Below, piece by piece: positions 4,718 through 36,210 of a DNA stretch of 64,000 nucleotides. The DNA comes from a virus. Position 1 is the stretch's first letter, and each line of letters opens with the position of its first letter. Below the pieces are notes generated by a model, which was not told the origin of the DNA, did not search any database, and was given only the letters and a program-made list of their open reading frames with translations. The translations under genes were made by a program, and so were the position numbers. The stretch covers positions 248,001 through 312,000 of the IMG/VR virus record IMGVR_UViG_3300023174_000040. The stretch is one strand, 5' to 3'.

Positions 4718-6997
4718 ATGCCAACTACAACAATAGCACCAATAGCAAGACCACCTGTGCCTCCTTCTTTGGAAGCCTATGGAGTTCCATTATATCAACC
4801 GAATGATCCATATCATTACGACTTTGACAACAAGCCAATTAAAACTCTAGTGATGAGGGACCAGATAATGTCTGGTCAGATCAACCAGAATTCACAAATA
4901 CTAAGAGAAGGTGCCGGTGATTCAGGTAGTCTCCCTTTGAGACTAGATCGATCTTTGGAAAAGGACGGAAACTTAAAACCAGGAGCAATAGATCAAGCCA
5001 ATCACAGTATAGCGCACCACTCAAATGGAAGTAAGCAAATAACACAAGAAGAAATGGATGAATATAATTCTTTAGGTTATACTTTAAATTCATCACCAGA
5101 TTTCGTGGTTATGTTAAGAGCAGAGAGAGATAAGCTTTCGCAAATAACTGCCGATGCCAATAATATAACATTCCAATTTCCAGGTATGAGCACCCCGGTG
5201 GATGGGGGAACGATAGAATTCCAAGACTCGTATGGAATTTATTGGGAAATTAGCAATCCCTCCGATGAAAACATAGTAATTAAACCCATACTCAATAATG
5301 CCACTGATCACAAACATTTTTATGAAGTTACTCCTGTTTTTGCAAACGGAGAATATCAAATATCTGGTATTCAAGAATTCAAAAAAGATACCTTGAGGGT
5401 ATATGTTAACGGAGTCAGAATACCATCGTGCTCACAGAATTGTTCAGCTTCAGACGGAATATATTATCCTGCATTTAGCTCCACGGTAACAACTCAGCCA
5501 CCACAATTAAAAGCTCCAAATACGCAATGGAATAACTTGTATTTCACAGAGATGAATGATGAAGCAAAATTCACGCTTTCCTCAACCTTATCAAGTTATG
5601 ATAAAATTTTTGTAGACTATGAAATAGAAATAATGCAGTCGGCAACAACCACAACAGCTCGGCCTGTGACCACCACAACTTTGACGCCGACCACAACAAC
5701 TTTATCGCCATTTAATTTAAATTCAATATCTGTCTCGGATGTTACCGGCAATTATCCGAGCATAACAGATATAATAACAGCGGGAAATAGGATACAAATA
5801 ATTAGTGATGGGGATCCTTATCCAGCATTGGCCGGGAATCCATTATTCAATGATGGTTTAATTTCTAGAACCTTCTCGAATTCAAACAGCATAGCTGATC
5901 AAACACACAATTTCTTGTTTACTTATAGGGGAGGTTTGAATAACTCGGAAAATCCCCAAGATACAAGCTTGGGCGCAATAGGAGTCACAGTAAACGGAGT
6001 TGTTTTATTAAATCCATCTGCAGGGTATGGATCACTGCCCGGGGGGACCGACCTACCAGGAACGGGATACCAATTTAATGCTGTTCTCAACAGCTCTTTA
6101 TTTGGTGTTGATGAATGTGGTGGTAGTCCAAATGAAGAAGGAATGTATAGTTATCGTGATGGATCATTCTTGAAAAATTGTTGGAGTGTCAATAAGTTTT
6201 ACGGAAAAAATACCTATTATAGTGGAAGCACCTACCAGGGAGATCATTTTAGACACGGAAACGGACATTCAAAAATAGTAGGATTCTGCTTTGATGGATA
6301 TCCTATTTATGGTCCATACGGCTATTCTAATTCAATGTCCGCCTCCAGCAATGTAGTGCAAATGTTATCCTCCTATAGAACATCTACGACCGAGAAATCT
6401 GGACGTGGTTACTCTTACGACGAATATCCTGCGGGCTCTTTTATAGAAGATTATAATTATATCCAAGCAGACTACATGCCAAATCCATACCTAGATGAGT
6501 ATAATGGAAGATACTGTGTGACGCCAGAATATCCAAATGGCACATATGCTTACTTCTTAACATTTGTAAGCGAAGACTTAAATACACCCGCATATCCCTA
6601 CATATTTGGCCCAAAAACAAGACAGATAAGAGAAACAGGCGGGGATCCACAAAATCAAGGACCAGGACCACACGCATTCTATGTAAACATTACCTCCATC
6701 CCCGGCACAGCTTATGTGCTAAATGGTAAAGATAATAATGGGGTATTATCTGGGAATAATTTATCAATAAATGTCTTGGTTGGTGATGCAATAATACTAA
6801 ATATTTCAACTTCTGGACACCCAGTATGGTTGAAAAAGTATGATGTTACTGGTTCTGGTTCGGATTTAATGGGCATCAATAATAACGGAACAGATGATGG
6901 AACCATAACCTGGGTGCCATCCGAACCAGGGACTTATTACTATATATCAGAAAATAGTTTTGATATGCACGGCAGCATAATAGTAACTTCTTCTTGA
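4718..6997 (+). CDS. YHYH-domain tail protein with C-terminal cupredoxin-like fold
   Basis: This 759-residue protein has three parts. An N-terminal virion-type region contains an HSIAHHSNG segment near residue 95. A Thr-rich linker (TTTTARPVTTTTLTPTTTT) lies near residues 310-330. A YHYH-like domain follows, recognised by GHSKIVGFCFDGYPIYGPYGY (about residues 520-540) and the EYNGRYCVTPEYPNGTYAYF stretch. The C terminus (about residues 665-759) has GHPVWLK, a WVPSEPGTYYYISENSFDMHGSIIV ending and an overall pattern like a cupredoxin, with candidate metal ligands His and Met in the DMHG segment. Such proteins occur in environmental bacteria and their phages. Here it is probably a fibre or baseplate decoration that binds host surface material; this role is inferred. 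Confidence 0.7.
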   Translation: MPTTTIAPIARPPVPPSLEAYGVPLYQPNDPYHYDFDNKPIKTLVMRDQIMSGQINQNSQILREGAGDSGSLPLRLDRSLEKDGNLKPGAIDQANHSIAHHSNGSKQITQEEMDEYNSLGYTLNSSPDFVVMLRAERDKLSQITADANNITFQFPGMSTPVDGGTIEFQDSYGIYWEISNPSDENIVIKPILNNATDHKHFYEVTPVFANGEYQISGIQEFKKDTLRVYVNGVRIPSCSQNCSASDGIYYPAFSSTVTTQPPQLKAPNTQWNNLYFTEMNDEAKFTLSSTLSSYDKIFVDYEIEIMQSATTTTARPVTTTTLTPTTTTLSPFNLNSISVSDVTGNYPSITDIITAGNRIQIISDGDPYPALAGNPLFNDGLISRTFSNSNSIADQTHNFLFTYRGGLNNSENPQDTSLGAIGVTVNGVVLLNPSAGYGSLPGGTDLPGTGYQFNAVLNSSLFGVDECGGSPNEEGMYSYRDGSFLKNCWSVNKFYGKNTYYSGSTYQGDHFRHGNGHSKIVGFCFDGYPIYGPYGYSNSMSASSNVVQMLSSYRTSTTEKSGRGYSYDEYPAGSFIEDYNYIQADYMPNPYLDEYNGRYCVTPEYPNGTYAYFLTFVSEDLNTPAYPYIFGPKTRQIRETGGDPQNQGPGPHAFYVNITSIPGTAYVLNGKDNNGVLSGNNLSINVLVGDAIILNISTSGHPVWLKKYDVTGSGSDLMGINNNGTDDGTITWVPSEPGTYYYISENSFDMHGSIIVTSS

Positions 6998-26215: not shown

Positions 26216-26481
26216 AAATTTTCTCTCTTTTCTTTTTCTATCATTTCATCTATTACTTGAATAGATTCTACAGGATATTTATATTTATTACCAGGCTTAT
26301 TTACTTCCTGTTGTTGTTTTTTTATCTTATTTTTGTTTTTAATATCCAGTTGATTAACATTAGATATTAATAATTTAATAGAATGTTTAATATCTTCTGC
26401 TTTAAATGAATCTCCGCAATTAGCATAAGCTAAATTTAAATAATAAATAATTTTTTCATAATTAGGAGTCATATTTACCAT
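26212..26481 (-). CDS. Small protein downstream of the large terminase
   Basis: An 89-residue, helical, charged protein overlapping the terminase stop by 7 bp and the next gene by 4 bp. Small terminase subunits are helical and often neighbour the large subunit, but usually upstream, and no DNA-binding motif can be seen. I therefore leave it unassigned; small terminase is one possibility. Confidence 0.45.
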   Translation of the reverse strand: MVNMTPNYEKIIYYLNLAYANCGDSFKAEDIKHSIKLLISNVNQLDIKNKNKIKKQQQEVNKPGNKYKYPVESIQVIDEMIEKEKRENL

Positions 26482-28247
26482 CCAAATTCATCAAGTAGTT
26501 TTGAATTTTTTCTATAAATATTAATAAGAGTTTCTTCGTCAGCCGAACTTAGACTGTCGTTTGAGGTGAAACTTATTTCTTCTTCTACAAAATCTTCATA
26601 AGAACTATTGAATAGCTCTCTTTTAATTTCTTGATACACATCATCCTGTATTTTATTAAGCATTTCCTTAGGTGCATCAGCACCAATTGGCACATCGTTT
26701 ATTAGTTTGTCTCTTACATAAATAGCAGCACAAAGAGCAGTTATGGCATCATCGTGCTTCCCTTTTTGGGCCTCGGCCTTCTTGGTCACTGGATTGTATT
26801 GAAATGTTTGTAATTCTGCAGTGAATCTCGAACTATTTATTTTAATGGCTTTGTTTAAGATTCTGTTCTGCATAGCCTCAAGCAATAATGGCCTATTAAC
26901 TCTGTTTACTTTTAAACCAGGAGTTTGAGTGCCACTTTTTTTAGTTTCATAAAATATATTCTCGTAATATAAAGTGTTTTCAAGCGAACTTAATACCGCT
27001 CCCCCAGGAGACATTGCTTCGACAATAACAAGTGCGGTATTATAATACACACCCACCTCTTTTAATATTTGTGCGAATATGTGAGGGGGGACTAAATTAC
27101 TATAAAACTCAGCAACTTGTTCCAAAGTATCCATCTCAAGAACATGGAAGCAACTACTATCTGCGTTTTCTCCCATTCCCTCAGCACAGTCTGCTCCTAT
27201 GATATATTCTTTTCCATCAATAGGCTCTTTCCACACCCAGAGCGCTCCTTTATTATTATCTGCTCCATCTAGCTGTGCGGCTCTTCCTGTTTTATTGACC
27301 CATTTTGGAAATAACTTTTTAATAGGATTATTGTGAATTGTAAACTCAGACATTTCTCTGATTAGAGCAGAAGGGATATATGTTTCTCCGGATCCTAAAA
27401 ATTCTCTAAGAACTTCTTGTAGAAAACCTTTTTCGCCCAATTGAGCTTTTTGCTCTTCAACCCACTTAGGATCATTATACTCAGGGTGCTCCCAGTAATC
27501 CAAATCTATTACATGGAACATATTTCGGCCTTCTCGAGCGTCGTTGTAGGTTTGTTCATACCAATTTCCAACGCCATTAACAGTAGAAACCAGAGTGCAA
27601 CTACCACCCGTACTTAATACAGGCCACATAGCCTTCCAATGCTTTTCCATCTCAGGAATAAACGCCGCTTCGTCTATAATTAAAAATGTTACGCTTTTAC
27701 CACGAGCAGCTTCCGGAGAATAGAACTTTAAAGCTCCGCCTGTGTCAACAAACATTTTTAAATGATCATTCCATTTACTTGTTTTTTTAGGGATCAACCA
27801 AACCGGAAGATTTTCTACTGCTCTATCTACTATCATGCCAGTTTCTGTGGCTTCACGATCAGTTTTAGAAAGAAGCATAACCTGCTGATCGAGTTTAAAC
27901 ATACATCTCCACAAGCCCCACAAGAGAGTGACAGTGGTCAATCCTCCCTGTCTGAACTTAGAGATTATATTAAATCTATTATTCTCGTAATCTTTAATTA
28001 CTTTTCTTTGGTAATTAAACAAAACAAAAGGAACAAGTCCTTTTGTTGGATGTAATATTCTAATATATTTGTGACAAAAATATTCAAAACTATCGACACA
28101 TTTTAAGAGTTCTTTTTTTTGTGTCTCAAGATCATAAAGATTTGTTTCTTCGATTGTCTCTTCAGGATTAATTGCTAATTCATAAGGATGAAGAGTGTAA
28201 TATCTTTTATCGTAAAGCTTATAATAGTATTCGCTATAATCGGCCAT
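26475..28247 (-). CDS. terL: Large terminase subunit (T4 gp17-like)
   Basis: This 590-residue protein is the DNA-packaging motor. The ATPase domain has a Walker-A-like SKFRQGGLTT at residues 96-105, Walker B FLIIDE at 188-193 followed by AAF, and a coupling motif near LVSTVNGVGNWYEQ. The nuclease domain shows the acidic residues of the RNase-H-like fold: Asp353 in IIGADCAEG, Glu410 in ALVIVE and the Asp pair in GKHDDAITAL (499-500). Length is close to T4 gp17 (610). It lies on the minus strand, away from the capsid cluster, unlike the T4 order. Confidence 0.92.
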   Translation of the reverse strand: MADYSEYYYKLYDKRYYTLHPYELAINPEETIEETNLYDLETQKKELLKCVDSFEYFCHKYIRILHPTKGLVPFVLFNYQRKVIKDYENNRFNIISKFRQGGLTTVTLLWGLWRCMFKLDQQVMLLSKTDREATETGMIVDRAVENLPVWLIPKKTSKWNDHLKMFVDTGGALKFYSPEAARGKSVTFLIIDEAAFIPEMEKHWKAMWPVLSTGGSCTLVSTVNGVGNWYEQTYNDAREGRNMFHVIDLDYWEHPEYNDPKWVEEQKAQLGEKGFLQEVLREFLGSGETYIPSALIREMSEFTIHNNPIKKLFPKWVNKTGRAAQLDGADNNKGALWVWKEPIDGKEYIIGADCAEGMGENADSSCFHVLEMDTLEQVAEFYSNLVPPHIFAQILKEVGVYYNTALVIVEAMSPGGAVLSSLENTLYYENIFYETKKSGTQTPGLKVNRVNRPLLLEAMQNRILNKAIKINSSRFTAELQTFQYNPVTKKAEAQKGKHDDAITALCAAIYVRDKLINDVPIGADAPKEMLNKIQDDVYQEIKRELFNSSYEDFVEEEISFTSNDSLSSADEETLINIYRKNSKLLDEFGW

Positions 28248-31115: not shown

Positions 31116-31772
31116 ATGAAACTTTTCTCAGAGTGGATAGTAGATAACCACCCAGAGTTTTATGAAAACTTTGAGTTCATGCCCCTGGATAGTGGTTTAT
31201 CCAGGGAAAAAACTAGTCTGTCGAGGAGATCGTCAGCATATCAAAGAACGGATATATCAGACGAAGATGCAAAAAGAATGGCCATCTCAATAGGTGATAT
31301 AGTAGATTTAGGTCCGGAAGTATCGAAGAATCAAATCGCAAAAATAGTAGAAGTAAGAAATTCTACTGTTAAGGTTCTAAATCTATATAATCAAAGATTA
31401 ACAATTATATCCATAGATGAACTATACCTAAAAAAAGATCTAATGGGCAGGGAGCTAATACCAAGAGATCAACAGCAACTGGATGCAATGGGCGCCAAAA
31501 ACCTTTGGATTAAATTATCTGAAAGACAATATAAAAAATTTGCAAGTCAATATAAAGAAAAAGAGATAGAGGATGTGATTTCAAAACAAAAAGAGATAGA
31601 TCAAAAACAAATAGATAAATTAAGATCTTGGTTTGCTGCCGCAAGTAAAGAAAAATTAGATACTCGGGCAGAAGAAGAAGATAGTAGATTAAAAGATATA
31701 TTTAAATCAGAACAACCAAGTTCAAGTCCGGCACCATTATCGAGATATGTTAAAAAGAAAGAACTACCTTGA
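31116..31772 (+). CDS. Protein with capsid-targeting-like N terminus
   Basis: The 218-residue product begins MKLFSEWIVDNHPEF, related to the MKxFxEWL peptide shared by several small proteins in this window and resembling the T4 capsid-targeting sequence. A compact beta-rich segment follows (GDIVDLGPEVSKNQIAKIVEVRNSTVKVLNLYNQ, residues about 65-100; KOW/SH3-like pattern), then a charged helix and a disordered tail. It ends in a TTGA overlap with the patatin gene. Possible injected head protein (inferred). Confidence 0.5.
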   Translation: MKLFSEWIVDNHPEFYENFEFMPLDSGLSREKTSLSRRSSAYQRTDISDEDAKRMAISIGDIVDLGPEVSKNQIAKIVEVRNSTVKVLNLYNQRLTIISIDELYLKKDLMGRELIPRDQQQLDAMGAKNLWIKLSERQYKKFASQYKEKEIEDVISKQKEIDQKQIDKLRSWFAAASKEKLDTRAEEEDSRLKDIFKSEQPSSSPAPLSRYVKKKELP

Positions 31773-32581
31773 AAAGAACTGCTTTTTGTTTTACGGGAGA
31801 AGGAGCTAGAGGAAGTATACAAGCGGGAATAGCTTTATCTCTATATGAGAGTAATATAAAACCAGAATTAACAATAGGGATCAGTTCTGGGAGTATATGC
31901 GCAGCTAGTTATGCTTATTTGGGGCCACAAGGTGTTGCAGATATGTGGTCTAATATAAAAAACATATTTGATGTTTTTGGGATTAATTACTTTCCCTGGA
32001 GAAAAACAGGGATGTTAAATCAAAAACCAATGGAAAAAATAGTTTCCAACGCATTAAAGAATACCCCAGTATGTGAAAGTATAGTTTCTAAGTTAAATAT
32101 TCATTCTGGGGAGATGATGTATGTTTCCAATAAAGGAATAACAGCAGATGAGTTTAAGGAAAATGTGCTTTCAAGCGTTGCAATTACAGGACTAGTAGAA
32201 GATAGAAACGGCTGGGTTGATGCCGGCAGTCGCCAATTAGCGCCATTAAAACAATGCATAGATTTAGGATATAACGAAATATATGTGATAATGGGCAGAC
32301 CTTTAACTCTTTCTTATTGGGAAGGCGCAAAGGGAATTTTAAAGCCATTAGAAATGGCCTTTAGAGCACTCGATATTAGTTTGTATGAGATAATGATAAG
32401 AGATATAAATCAACATTTAAATAATAATGATATAGAAATTTATTTAGTAGAACCAGATAAACTATTCTTTGATTCAGTATATTTTAATCAGTGCAAAAAT
32501 GGTGTACAGTATGGAAGAAAAGAATACACGATACATGACAAAAAATCTTTAAGAAATATTTTGCCCAAGATAGTCAATTAA
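31769..32581 (+). CDS. Patatin-like phospholipase
   Basis: The start is TTG at 31769, overlapping the previous stop (TTGA). The patatin fold is recognised by the oxyanion-hole motif TGEGARGS (residues 9-16), the nucleophile motif GISSG (Ser39) and the Asp of the dyad in GWVDAGS (Asp151; the usual motif is DG(G/A), here DA, a small deviation). The 270-residue length suits a single patatin domain. It would hydrolyse membrane lipids, perhaps assisting lysis or remodelling host membranes. The gene is coupled to the upstream capsid-targeted protein. Confidence 0.8.
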   Translation: MKRTAFCFTGEGARGSIQAGIALSLYESNIKPELTIGISSGSICAASYAYLGPQGVADMWSNIKNIFDVFGINYFPWRKTGMLNQKPMEKIVSNALKNTPVCESIVSKLNIHSGEMMYVSNKGITADEFKENVLSSVAITGLVEDRNGWVDAGSRQLAPLKQCIDLGYNEIYVIMGRPLTLSYWEGAKGILKPLEMAFRALDISLYEIMIRDINQHLNNNDIEIYLVEPDKLFFDSVYFNQCKNGVQYGRKEYTIHDKKSLRNILPKIVN

Positions 32582-33301
32582 ATCTTTAGAATCTGACAGA
32601 CCTTTATATTTTTTTTGCTCTTCTGTCATATTATTTATTGTTTTAATCAAGCTTTCTTTGTCTATATCCTCTTCATCAATCAGGTACTGTCTTAAAATAA
32701 AAAGACAAAAACCCTTATCTGGGAATCCTACGGTGACTTGTCTTTCTATTTTTATAAAAACCTTAGGTTCATTCTTGTCAAAATTTATGAATGGAAACCT
32801 TGGATGATAGTTATATTTCCTCTCATGAACCACACTCCAAAGATATCTTTCAAATATCCCAGAGTTTATTATTGCGTTAACTATTTTAGTGCTATTTTTT
32901 AAACTCATTGGAACTGGAGAATGCAACTCATCAAAAGACATGCCTATTTTTTCAGCCGGATTCCAACTACTGGGGAAGCAGACATGTCCACTAGCCATCC
33001 AATCTTTATTATTTTTTATCCTATGAATTATTAGATCTTCATCTATTTCTCTGGCTATATCGATATATTTTCTACTCTGTAGACTTATGGGGTAATTATC
33101 CAGTATGAACCTTTCGCAGGACTCATATATATCTTCAGATATGTGGTTTTCAAAAAAGAATTCTTGCTGAGATAGAGCAATTCTTTTTTCTTTTTGTATA
33201 AATTCAGAATCTTTTCTGTCTTTTTCAAAGACCTGTTCTGGGTTTATCTTCTTTAAATCAGGTAAAGTGCTAAACCCCTTAATATAAGCATGATTTACCA
33301 T
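32549..33301 (-). CDS. DUF3445/HDOD-like (heme-dependent oxidative N-demethylase alpha) protein
   Basis: The 250-residue protein contains the two segments typical of DUF3445: SGHVCFPSSWNPAEKIGMSF followed by DELHSPVP (about residues 105-132), and a later IERQVTVGFPDKGFCLFILRQYL (about 185-207). DUF3445 proteins include the heme-containing alpha subunit of an oxidative N-demethylase acting on methylated amines. No other subunit is encoded nearby, so whether the phage protein is an enzyme or a relic fold used otherwise is open. It overlaps the patatin gene convergently by 33 bp and the upstream zinc-ribbon gene by 7 bp. Confidence 0.65.
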   Translation of the reverse strand: MVNHAYIKGFSTLPDLKKINPEQVFEKDRKDSEFIQKEKRIALSQQEFFFENHISEDIYESCERFILDNYPISLQSRKYIDIAREIDEDLIIHRIKNNKDWMASGHVCFPSSWNPAEKIGMSFDELHSPVPMSLKNSTKIVNAIINSGIFERYLWSVVHERKYNYHPRFPFINFDKNEPKVFIKIERQVTVGFPDKGFCLFILRQYLIDEEDIDKESLIKTINNMTEEQKKYKGLSDSKDLIDYLGQNIS

Positions 33302-33774
33302 GCAACTTTGGTTATCCTGTGAGGCCTCTTTAATAATTTACCATCAATTAATTTTTCTTCAGCCATCCAAATATGACAATAGCCAGAATTCTTTTCTATT
33401 CCATAGGCGACTATTCCGTTTTGATCTAATCTAAAAACTTTGAACTTTCCACGATAACCCATTAAAATTTTGTCACGTGTTTTATTTTTTAGGTTCGAAG
33501 AACCATCTTCATCTTCGTTGTCATCATCGTCTTCATCATCATATTCCTCCACCTCTGTTTTAGAAGAAGGGCTGTCAGATGTTTTCCATATTGGGCCACC
33601 ACCCAAAACTTTTATAATGTCTCCGCTTTGGAGCTCCTTCCAGTCTATTCTAGTTGCCTTGGGCTTATCTTTTTTTATTTTAAATGCAAAGCCGGCATCA
33701 CAAAATTTACATCTTCTGGCTCTTACACCATTTTCTTTTTTGCATTTATCACAAATCTTTTTTGGCATTTTCAA
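33295..33774 (-). CDS. Zinc-ribbon protein
   Basis: The 159-residue product starts with a treble-clef/zinc-ribbon (KICDKCKKENGVRARRCKFCDAGF, two C-x2-C pairs), followed by a linker and an SH3-like stretch (GDIIKVLGGGPIWKT). An acidic tract (EVEEYDDEDDDDNEDEDG) leads to a C-terminal beta domain (MGYRGKFKVFRLDQNGIVAYGIE). It is in a minus-strand operon with the Sm-like gene upstream and the DUF3445 gene downstream, joined by 4- and 7-bp overlaps. It probably binds nucleic acid or a polymerase component. Confidence 0.6.
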   Translation of the reverse strand: MKMPKKICDKCKKENGVRARRCKFCDAGFAFKIKKDKPKATRIDWKELQSGDIIKVLGGGPIWKTSDSPSSKTEVEEYDDEDDDDNEDEDGSSNLKNKTRDKILMGYRGKFKVFRLDQNGIVAYGIEKNSGYCHIWMAEEKLIDGKLLKRPHRITKVAW

Positions 33775-34052
33775 CCCTTTATTATACTATTTTTTGCGAT
33801 TACAACGCCTGTACCGTGCTCTGAGTTATAGACGTTTTTGATATCATCATCTGGCTCGCATGTCAATATCACATGGCTCTTGTGAATCAAATACTTTTCA
33901 TCTTTCGAGTATGGAATCAAGGGCATACTTGCGATTCCATTCTGGGTCATAAGGAACTTTTGGGGCTTGATGGCTACATAGAAATCATCTTTTGCCTCCA
34001 ATGCACATATGAATTCTTCTCCACTCACGAGCTTCAAAACTTTGATCTCCAT
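33771..34052 (-). CDS. Sm-like small protein conserved in T4-like aquatic phages
   Basis: A 93-residue beta-barrel-like protein. KLVSGEEFICALEAKDDFYVAI, then PQKFLMTQNGIASMPLIPYS and HVILTCEPDDDIKNVYNS follow the plan of a small protein widespread in marine T4-like phages and predicted to have an LSm/Hfq-like fold. It is the first gene of a three-gene minus-strand operon. RNA binding is inferred from the fold. Confidence 0.6.
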   Translation of the reverse strand: MEIKVLKLVSGEEFICALEAKDDFYVAIKPQKFLMTQNGIASMPLIPYSKDEKYLIHKSHVILTCEPDDDIKNVYNSEHGTGVVIAKNSIIKG

Positions 34053-34276: not shown

Positions 34277-34711
34277 ATGAAAATGAAAAATAAATTTACA
34301 GATTACAAAGATGTAGTTAAAATTCTTAAAAAGCATTGCCCTTTAGCGTATGAAATCAGCGTTAGAAGAGTGGCAATGGGAAGATGTCTTGATGGAGATT
34401 GTGTAAAATATAAAAAGAAATTCTTTATAAGAATTAACAGAGATCTGCCAGAAGATTCTGCTATAGACACTCTTTTACATGAATGGGCACATGCCCGTGC
34501 TTGGAATCATCTACTAGATAACTTGGATAGTCAAGACAAATTCGATGATTTTTCCCACGATGCATCATGGGGAGTTGCATATAGCGAAGTCTATAGACTA
34601 TATCAGAGATACTTTCTATTAAGCACAGATGGAATGAGTAACGTAGATGAATCAACCATGTGCAGTAAAAAAAGATATTGTAGCAGAGGAACAGATCAAG
34701 AAATAATATGA
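34277..34711 (+). CDS. SprT-like zinc metalloprotease
   Basis: The 144-residue protein has the HEXXH zinc motif as HEWAH (residues 68-72) in the context IDTLLHEWAHARAW, typical of SprT-like proteins of cyanophages and other T4-like phages. The upstream segment (CVKYKKKFFIRINRDLPEDSAID) matches the strand before the metal site. SprT-like proteins such as Spartan resolve DNA-protein crosslinks, but the role in phage is not established. It overlaps the next gene by 4 bp (ATGA). Confidence 0.7.
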   Translation: MKMKNKFTDYKDVVKILKKHCPLAYEISVRRVAMGRCLDGDCVKYKKKFFIRINRDLPEDSAIDTLLHEWAHARAWNHLLDNLDSQDKFDDFSHDASWGVAYSEVYRLYQRYFLLSTDGMSNVDESTMCSKKRYCSRGTDQEII

Positions 34712-35511
34712 ATTATTTTGTCTCGGTAGAAGATTCTTACTACCATAATTGGCAACTCGAATTATTGATAGAAAGCTTCAAGGTATTGGGTCTAGAGGAC
34801 AATCTATATATATCGGTGGCTCAGGCAGACAAAGAGTATCTTAAAAATAATAAAAATCTTTCAACACATGCCAATAAATATATTCATAAAAATATAGGCA
34901 GAGAAACAGGTATACTCAAATTAAATAAATGGGGTTCTCTTTACACTCTTATGGAGAACAACATACTAAGTTTACCCGTGACCGTACTAGATCCCGATAC
35001 AGTCATACAAAAAGATATAAAAATACAAGATAAACAATTTATATTTTCTATTGATCCTGACTTTGTTTATAATAAAAGATATGCCAAATTAATTAGACTA
35101 TCAAAAAATGAAATGGATAAATGGCTTAATCTGGGTGAAGTGTTTGTTTTTAATGAATTATCATTAAATTTCTTTAAGGATATGGCAATATTATGTCAAA
35201 TGGTGGGATTGGATCCAAACAAATATCAAGTTGATAAAGCGGCATTATTTGCAACTTTGTGCAAACATAAAGTCAGTAAAATATTAGCCAGTAATGATAT
35301 CGAAGGAAATCTAATAGAGAGTCAATTAAAAGATATAATAAGCTATAGGCATGGAGTTAATCCCATGTTTAATAAAAAACTATATAAAAGTAATGATATG
35401 AATTTCTCCATGGCATCCGATAATCCAATAAATCTTTTATCTAAAATGGACCACACCCCTTCTTTAGAGTATGTGTCCAAGATTGCAAAGAGAATTATAA
35501 ACCGAATATAA
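34708..35511 (+). CDS. Putative GT-A-type glycosyltransferase
   Basis: The 267-residue protein has an N-terminal YFVSVEDSYYHNWQLELLIESFKVLG segment like a nucleotide-sugar Rossmann half. LPVTVLDPDTVIQK near residue 90 contains a D-x-D motif (DPD) at the expected place for metal binding. Further segments (LNLGEVFVFNELS) fit a GT-A fold. It is translated together with the SprT-like gene. Substrate unknown; it may modify phage DNA, virion or host glycans. Moderate confidence. Confidence 0.5.
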   Translation: MNYFVSVEDSYYHNWQLELLIESFKVLGLEDNLYISVAQADKEYLKNNKNLSTHANKYIHKNIGRETGILKLNKWGSLYTLMENNILSLPVTVLDPDTVIQKDIKIQDKQFIFSIDPDFVYNKRYAKLIRLSKNEMDKWLNLGEVFVFNELSLNFFKDMAILCQMVGLDPNKYQVDKAALFATLCKHKVSKILASNDIEGNLIESQLKDIISYRHGVNPMFNKKLYKSNDMNFSMASDNPINLLSKMDHTPSLEYVSKIAKRIINRI

Positions 35512-35785
35512 TTGTTTCTGGCTTGTCGTCTATCCAGACATCAATATTCACACCAAGTTTATCGACAACATCTTTTTTAGGAAGATGATTGCAGAATATC
35601 ACATCTTCTATTAATTCCAAAGAAGACCCAAAGCTACCCTGCACTTCATCTATATTTTTTTGTTCTTCTGTCCGGGCAGTTACACAAAAAACTCGGTGGC
35701 CTCTAGAGGTTGCCTTAAGAATAAACCACTTCCAAAATATTGGATCTTCTGTGAAAGTGTTGTCAAAATCTAAAGAAAAAACCAT
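35495..35785 (-). CDS. Small HAD-superfamily phosphatase-like protein
   Basis: The 96-residue protein starts with a HAD motif I (FSLDFDNTFTEDP, nucleophile Asp), then RGHRVFCVTARTEEQ (motif II Thr) and ends with DVWIDDKPETI (motif IV acidic pair). It is a minimal HAD domain without a cap, as in phage polynucleotide 3'-phosphatase-like proteins. It overlaps the ferritin-like gene upstream by 1 bp and converges with the glycosyltransferase gene with a 17-bp overlap. Confidence 0.7.
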   Translation of the reverse strand: MVFSLDFDNTFTEDPIFWKWFILKATSRGHRVFCVTARTEEQKNIDEVQGSFGSSLELIEDVIFCNHLPKKDVVDKLGVNIDVWIDDKPETIIFGL

Positions 35786-36210
35786 TATATTCCTTTTAGC
35801 ATCTGTCTTATCTCATCCAAATCTTTCCTGCTATCTTCCATCTGTTTTTCCAAAAATATAACTACCCAATAACTATTAAGATCGTTTATTTTTTCAGCAT
35901 CAGCTATTCTCTGATAATAGTTATTTATAACCTCTTCTTCCATTTTTGCTGCGTATTCTAGAATTTCTCTTGGATCGCTCAAGGATGGAAAATCATTCGG
36001 CACCTTTGCAGGAGAGCCCCCAAGCCCAGTAATAAGATCAGAGAATTGCACGATGTGTTGCATTTCACTGGCCGCCTGTTCCAGCAGCCATTCTTTGTAT
36101 TCTTTTGCGTGCAAACCAACTATGTTGCTTGCATTATGAAGATAAAAACAATGATGTTTCCACTCATTTTTAAGGTCTTGATTTATTCTTTCAACCAAAG
36201 CATTAATCAT
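35785..36210 (-). CDS. Ferritin-like diiron protein
   Basis: This 141-residue four-helix protein resembles bacterioferritin/Dps-type domains. Helix A has NEWKHHCFYLHNAS (Glu16), helix B has SEMQHI (Glu49 and His52, the ExxH ligand pair), helix C has KMEEEVINNYYQRI (Glu92/93), and helix D has FLEKQMEDSRKDLDEI with acidic residues, but the second ExxH His is missing. Iron binding is therefore plausible but the site is not canonical. Ferritin-like genes are known from aquatic phages. Roles in iron or oxidative stress control are inferred. Confidence 0.65.
   Translation of the reverse strand: MINALVERINQDLKNEWKHHCFYLHNASNIVGLHAKEYKEWLLEQAASEMQHIVQFSDLITGLGGSPAKVPNDFPSLSDPREILEYAAKMEEEVINNYYQRIADAEKINDLNSYWVVIFLEKQMEDSRKDLDEIRQMLKGI

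Follow-up and report, generated by a model that had tools for sequence, protein, structure and literature searches.

Does a phage carry a heme enzyme for methylated amines? The question is raised by an ORF in the window (the whole stretch of 64,000 nucleotides analysed here, running from 248001 to 312000 in a virus record of 323,267 bases), which the preliminary description presented as a phage gene with the signature of the alpha subunit of heme-dependent oxidative N-demethylase (HODM), and as a plausible auxiliary metabolic gene for methylamines. The same description held that a loss of the heme-binding residues would speak against it, and proposed as checks a profile search, a structure prediction for the heme pocket and a search for the gene in related phages. 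The name 'HDOD' in its title was wrong: HDOD is a separate domain, an HD-related output domain, and the family intended is HODM/DUF3445. Coordinates of the main features are given in Table 1.

Table 1. Features of the window that bear on the HODM-like gene (coordinates are those of the window).
Feature	Position	Strand	Remarks
Baseplate-type protein	4718-6997		
Large terminase	26475-28247		
Patatin-like phospholipase (PF01734)	31769-32581		Convergent with the HODM-like gene, 33-nt overlap
HODM_asu-like (PF11927/DUF3445) protein, phage-specific subfamily	32549..33301	(-)	ATG start; 250 aa; stop counted
PF11927 profile match, residues 77-240, includes PAS core	32582..33073	(-)	Pfam search
Glu186 codon (HODM E266), proposed acid of substrate/oxygen site	32744..32746	(-)	Invariant; role inferred
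Arg152 codon (HODM R224), proposed distal-pocket Arg, G-beta strand	32846..32848	(-)	Invariant; role inferred
His127 codon (HSPVPM His; HODM H194), proposed proximal heme ligand	32921..32923	(-)	Invariant in alignment; role inferred
Upstream overlapping gene, CxxC-x10-CxxC ribbon protein	33295..33774	(-)	159 aa; no Pfam family above cut-off
First gene of the run, phrog_527/431-like	33771..34052	(-)	93 aa; PHROGs search
Conserved glycosyltransferase-looking ORF	34708-35511		1.4 kb from the HODM-like gene; no Pfam match

The signature was borne out by the profile search. Against PF11927.14 (HODM_asu-like, a family earlier named DUF3445), the window ORF scored 80.5 bits (E 1.8e-22; curated cut-off, 25 bits) over profile positions 91-270 of 273, a match far above chance. 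When phmmer was run with the window protein against all PDB chains, the sole match was HODM 5lte (E 1.8e-5); PHROGs and NCBIfam searches assigned no family to it. The annotated ATG start is supported, as conservation among nine diverged homologues (see below) begins at residue 6 and the ORF shares its first 7 nt with the end of the upstream gene.

A poor AF2 model from a 10-sequence alignment (pLDDT 56) was superseded by one from a 23-row alignment (pLDDT 80.6, pTM 0.82). In a Foldseek search, the latter matched the HODM alpha subunit 5lth (E 1.2e-11, TM 0.74) and then LOV/PAS domains (E ~3e-3); these scores are to be read knowing that the alignment included HODM-type sequences and that 5LTE was possibly in the AF2 training set. 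The matched region spans the HODM PAS domain, which comprises residues 155-290 of 5LTE (PMC8694187). As modelled, the window protein has a PAS-type fold like that of 5LTE. The structural check proposed earlier yielded a predicted HODM alpha-like fold, in a model that has no heme coordinates. Altogether, it is near certain that the protein is a PF11927 family member with a PAS fold.

Alignment with HODM alpha of Pseudomonas mendocina (5LTE/5LTH/5LTI) pairs H127, R152, W155, E186 and Q188 of the phage protein with H194, R224, W227, E266 and Q268, and a C-terminal YKG motif is also shared. H127, R152, E186 and Q188, as well as D89, are invariant across the 40 family members examined, and the former four are kept in all phage members. 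No loss of this kind was seen: every family-wide invariant residue is retained. In the AF2 model, H127 stands immediately before a long helix (residues 134-147) that precedes the G-beta strand harboring R152, and FixL-type sensors are known to use an F-alpha His as their heme ligand (PMC10765370). From this combination of invariance and position we infer that H127 may be the proximal ligand, and that R152, E186 and Q188 may line the distal site. The phage protein very likely binds heme.

Phage members are 52-77% identical to one another but only ~20-28% identical to bacterial members where measured (22-28% to HODM-type proteins in tblastn). Comparison of the phage profile with a HODM-type profile by hhalign gave a probability of 97.7% (E 2e-12). 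In a maximum-likelihood tree, the phage proteins group together in a deep clade of their own (100/99), separate from the HODM-type branch (100/98), and thus fall outside the HODM/dimethylamine monooxygenase alpha clade. The stem of the phage clade measures 3.7 changes per site; because the branches are long, the exact position of the root is unsure. The phage protein is also shorter than HODM alpha (250 vs 344 aa): the N-terminal ~45 residues, including an RFPFPF segment, are absent, and so are three internal segments, namely a ~30-residue block preceding the PAS core, 5 residues that follow HxPVP and another 8 from the G-H loop. Five residues (H93, H106, H166, C199 and E151) are invariant in phage members only. 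Given these phage-only invariants and the long stem, the chemistry may have shifted in the phage clade.

The phage setting is sound, since the large virus record encodes a terminase and a baseplate-type protein within the window, and on this point the preliminary description was right. A first scan of viral sequences yielded one near-copy of the gene (99%) on a 251-kb contig. Further scans, with profiles and with two degenerate DNA patterns, added nine diverged IMG/VR contigs (L003, L084, L113, L118, L120, L121, L122, L123 and L126), which answers the call for related phages and must be taken as a minimum count. Over almost the full length, their proteins share 52-77% identity with that of the window. 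PF11927 was matched by all ten distinct phage members (E <= 1e-3), and dN/dS was ~0.09 in the measurable pairs. The gene is under purifying selection and is not a lone oddity: it is retained across a group of large phages, in at least 10 diverged viral contigs. One more contig, L124, matched a DNA pattern, yet its relationship was ruled out.

The window terminase is present in three of the ten other contigs (100, 96 and 73%). Other contigs have GP88-like, caspase-like, patatin-like and further gene families in common, and L003 encodes a family A DNA polymerase; the viral nature of the shorter contigs rests on their IMG/VR listing and on these shared families. Caspase-like (Peptidase_C14) ORFs were seen at L127 5287-6327, L128 5868-6770, L129 5532-6482 and L135 10308-11255, and Pfam was run for two of them (L113/L127 and L128). 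No hit at E <= 1 was obtained in INPHARED by tblastn with the window protein and one diverged member as queries, nor any match at E <= 1e-3 in BFVD with the protein model. The named huge phage closest by terminase is LR756511 (595 kb, 52%), in which a phage-profile search, run without a positive control, detected no copy of the gene. In the literature searched, DUF3445 was not tied to phages except in one unrelated genome paper. The phage-specific branch is real and conserved. The description 'HODM-like heme-PAS protein in phages' is therefore well supported.

The window gene is the last of a tight three-gene run, and is probably co-transcribed with the overlapping 159-aa ribbon gene. Among the contigs compared, both upstream genes of the run recur only in the 77% relative. 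A phrog_471 'methylamine utilization' label on the 93-aa gene (E 6e-4) was rejected because its better matches are unannotated families and because the gene occurs only in the nearest relative. The existence of a conserved partner operon was likewise discarded, as the neighbours vary. In L003, a sugar O-methyltransferase gene (TIGR04371) lies 4 nt upstream and glycosyltransferase-looking ORFs lie downstream; in L084, the neighbour is a TnpB-like ORF; in other contigs, caspase-like or GP88-like genes are found several kb away, and in L132 and L133 GDP-mannose dehydratase or epimerase genes are found 3-7 kb away. Neither a conserved partner nor a methylamine-related gene was seen in the contig neighbourhoods examined. 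The window also harbors a ferritin-like gene (PF00210, E 3.3e-19; 35785-36210, minus strand) 2.5 kb from the heme-PAS gene, and a weak SprT-like/metallopeptidase match (E 0.003, under the cut-off; 34277-34711, plus strand) that is conserved in L128 and L130. Homologues of the patatin-like gene occur in three other contigs (L130 8896-9708, L135 15012-15830 and L128 1435-2253).

Does the phage encode the subunits with which HODM works? A domain search of the virus record, which may be incomplete, detected no GCV_T, Fer2, FAD_binding_6, NAD_binding_1 or Rieske domain, so that no FMN/2Fe-2S reductase or GcvT-like subunit of a HODM-type system was detectable there. An alpha subunit on its own would depend on the host for partners: Paracoccus no longer grows on dimethylamine once any of its four dmm genes is deleted (PMC4543880), and Ruegeria dmmABC suffices for dimethylamine degradation in E. 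coli (PMC5520151). Orphan bacterial PF11927 proteins outside the HODM type (250-320 aa, e.g. L138) are similar to the phage proteins in length, in the invariant H/R/E/Q and in an 'LPxLxP..EWL..D' type N-terminus, although the phage clade is not nested among them. HODM partner genes, reductase included, were absent from the neighbourhoods of these bacterial genes that were examined, and for this reason a stand-alone phage member is not anomalous. Their neighbours are pabB/pabC, glutathione transferase or glutamine synthetase genes; the folate genes are pabB-like in L138 and L139 and pabC-like in L138 (L138 928-2762, L139 1869-3014), a vicinity that is a possible clue to the role of the orphan family.

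Our preferred reading, to which we assign a probability of about 0.5, is that a group of large phages retains a compact heme-PAS enzyme that consists of one domain and belongs to the DUF3445/HODM-alpha superfamily. It is based on the PF11927 score, the hhalign result, the AF2/Foldseek match, the invariance of H127, R152, E186 and Q188, and the low dN/dS; the lack of a partner or reductase in the record, the long stem, the phage-only invariants and the HODM-type content of the AF2 input count against it. The protein is best taken as a stand-alone oxidase/oxygenase-like enzyme that probably uses host electrons and would act on an amine-type substrate. H127 would be the proximal ligand of a heme b seated in the PAS pocket; a polar distal site made up of R152, E186 and Q188 would, as in HODM, accommodate O2 and a small substrate of the amine type. 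A host reductase or ferredoxin would supply the electrons, and a small host or phage metabolite, not necessarily dimethylamine, would be oxidised, possibly through N-demethylation. That the protein is an oxidative enzyme driven by host electrons has slightly better than even odds. HODM itself was reportedly described (Ortmayer 2016) as the first PAS domain turned enzyme. A branch in phages with the invariant core retained and the partner subunits lost would indicate either that a heme-PAS oxygenase can act alone or that phages have repurposed it. A bolder and rather doubtful version is that of a phage-specific heme-PAS oxygenase that has no dedicated redox partners and acts on a new substrate, such as a nucleotide sugar, an N-methylated or amino metabolite, or a molecule of host defence or signalling; it would be the first member from a virus in the only PAS family known to be enzymatic.

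The main alternative explanation is that the protein is a non-catalytic heme-PAS protein, either a gas or redox sensor or a scavenger of heme or NO, that would tune host physiology or guard the infection against NO, CO or peroxide. The PAS fold found by AF2 and Foldseek and the absence of an electron-transfer partner in the virus record are consistent with this idea; so may be a conserved His lying close to the putative F-alpha helix and followed by a G-beta Arg, an arrangement apparently shared with FixL, DosP and Aer2 (the F-alpha His is the heme ligand of FixL-type sensors, PMC10765370), and the phage-only H93, H106 or H166 could supply a second axial ligand. Such sensors, however, have an output domain, which is absent in all ten phage members, each a single 250-aa domain, and a PAS sensor made of that domain alone cannot do without a partner. 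Their sequence and fold scores are far below the HODM match, and the HODM-shared R152, E186 and Q188 are retained in every phage member. We consider a sensor or scavenger unlikely, though far from negligible.

The methylamine proposal would have the phage protein replace the alpha subunit and join the beta, gamma and delta subunits of a host HODM/dimethylamine monooxygenase during infection. The superfamily and the conserved core residues are indeed shared, and HODM operons exist in aquatic Neptuniibacter, Amphritea and Methylophaga, with the reductase adjoining alpha in L004. However, the position of the phage clade, the absence of partner domains and the lack of methylamine genes nearby leave this reading unsupported; the missing N-terminal and internal segments and the need of bacteria for all four dmm genes (PMC4543880) also argue against it. 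A host-HODM subunit is accordingly quite improbable, and the earlier claim of a methylated-amine catabolic gene was not supported. As the phage branch is missing from phage protein libraries, annotation pipelines would label the gene as a methylamine auxiliary metabolic gene, probably wrongly. Least probable is a role, alongside nearby sugar enzymes, in modifying a glycan or nucleotide sugar made by the phage, for instance by oxidatively removing an N-methyl or an amine group. The O-methyltransferase and glycosyltransferase-looking ORFs of L003, the GDP-mannose genes of L132 and L133, and the glycosyltransferase-looking ORF of the window point in this direction; nevertheless, neighbours are not conserved among contigs and large phages commonly have sugar genes, so we regard a role of this kind as very unlikely.

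Additional inspection of the contigs revealed a short N-terminal motif of the MKxFxEWL/EYL type on unrelated ORFs, at window positions 31116, 36295, 46104 and 60284 (plus strand) and 39350 (minus strand), and also at L003 13091 and 14899 and L084 6921, 14677 and 15827. The motif, which we take to resemble the capsid-targeting sequence of T4, may mark capsid-packaged proteins.
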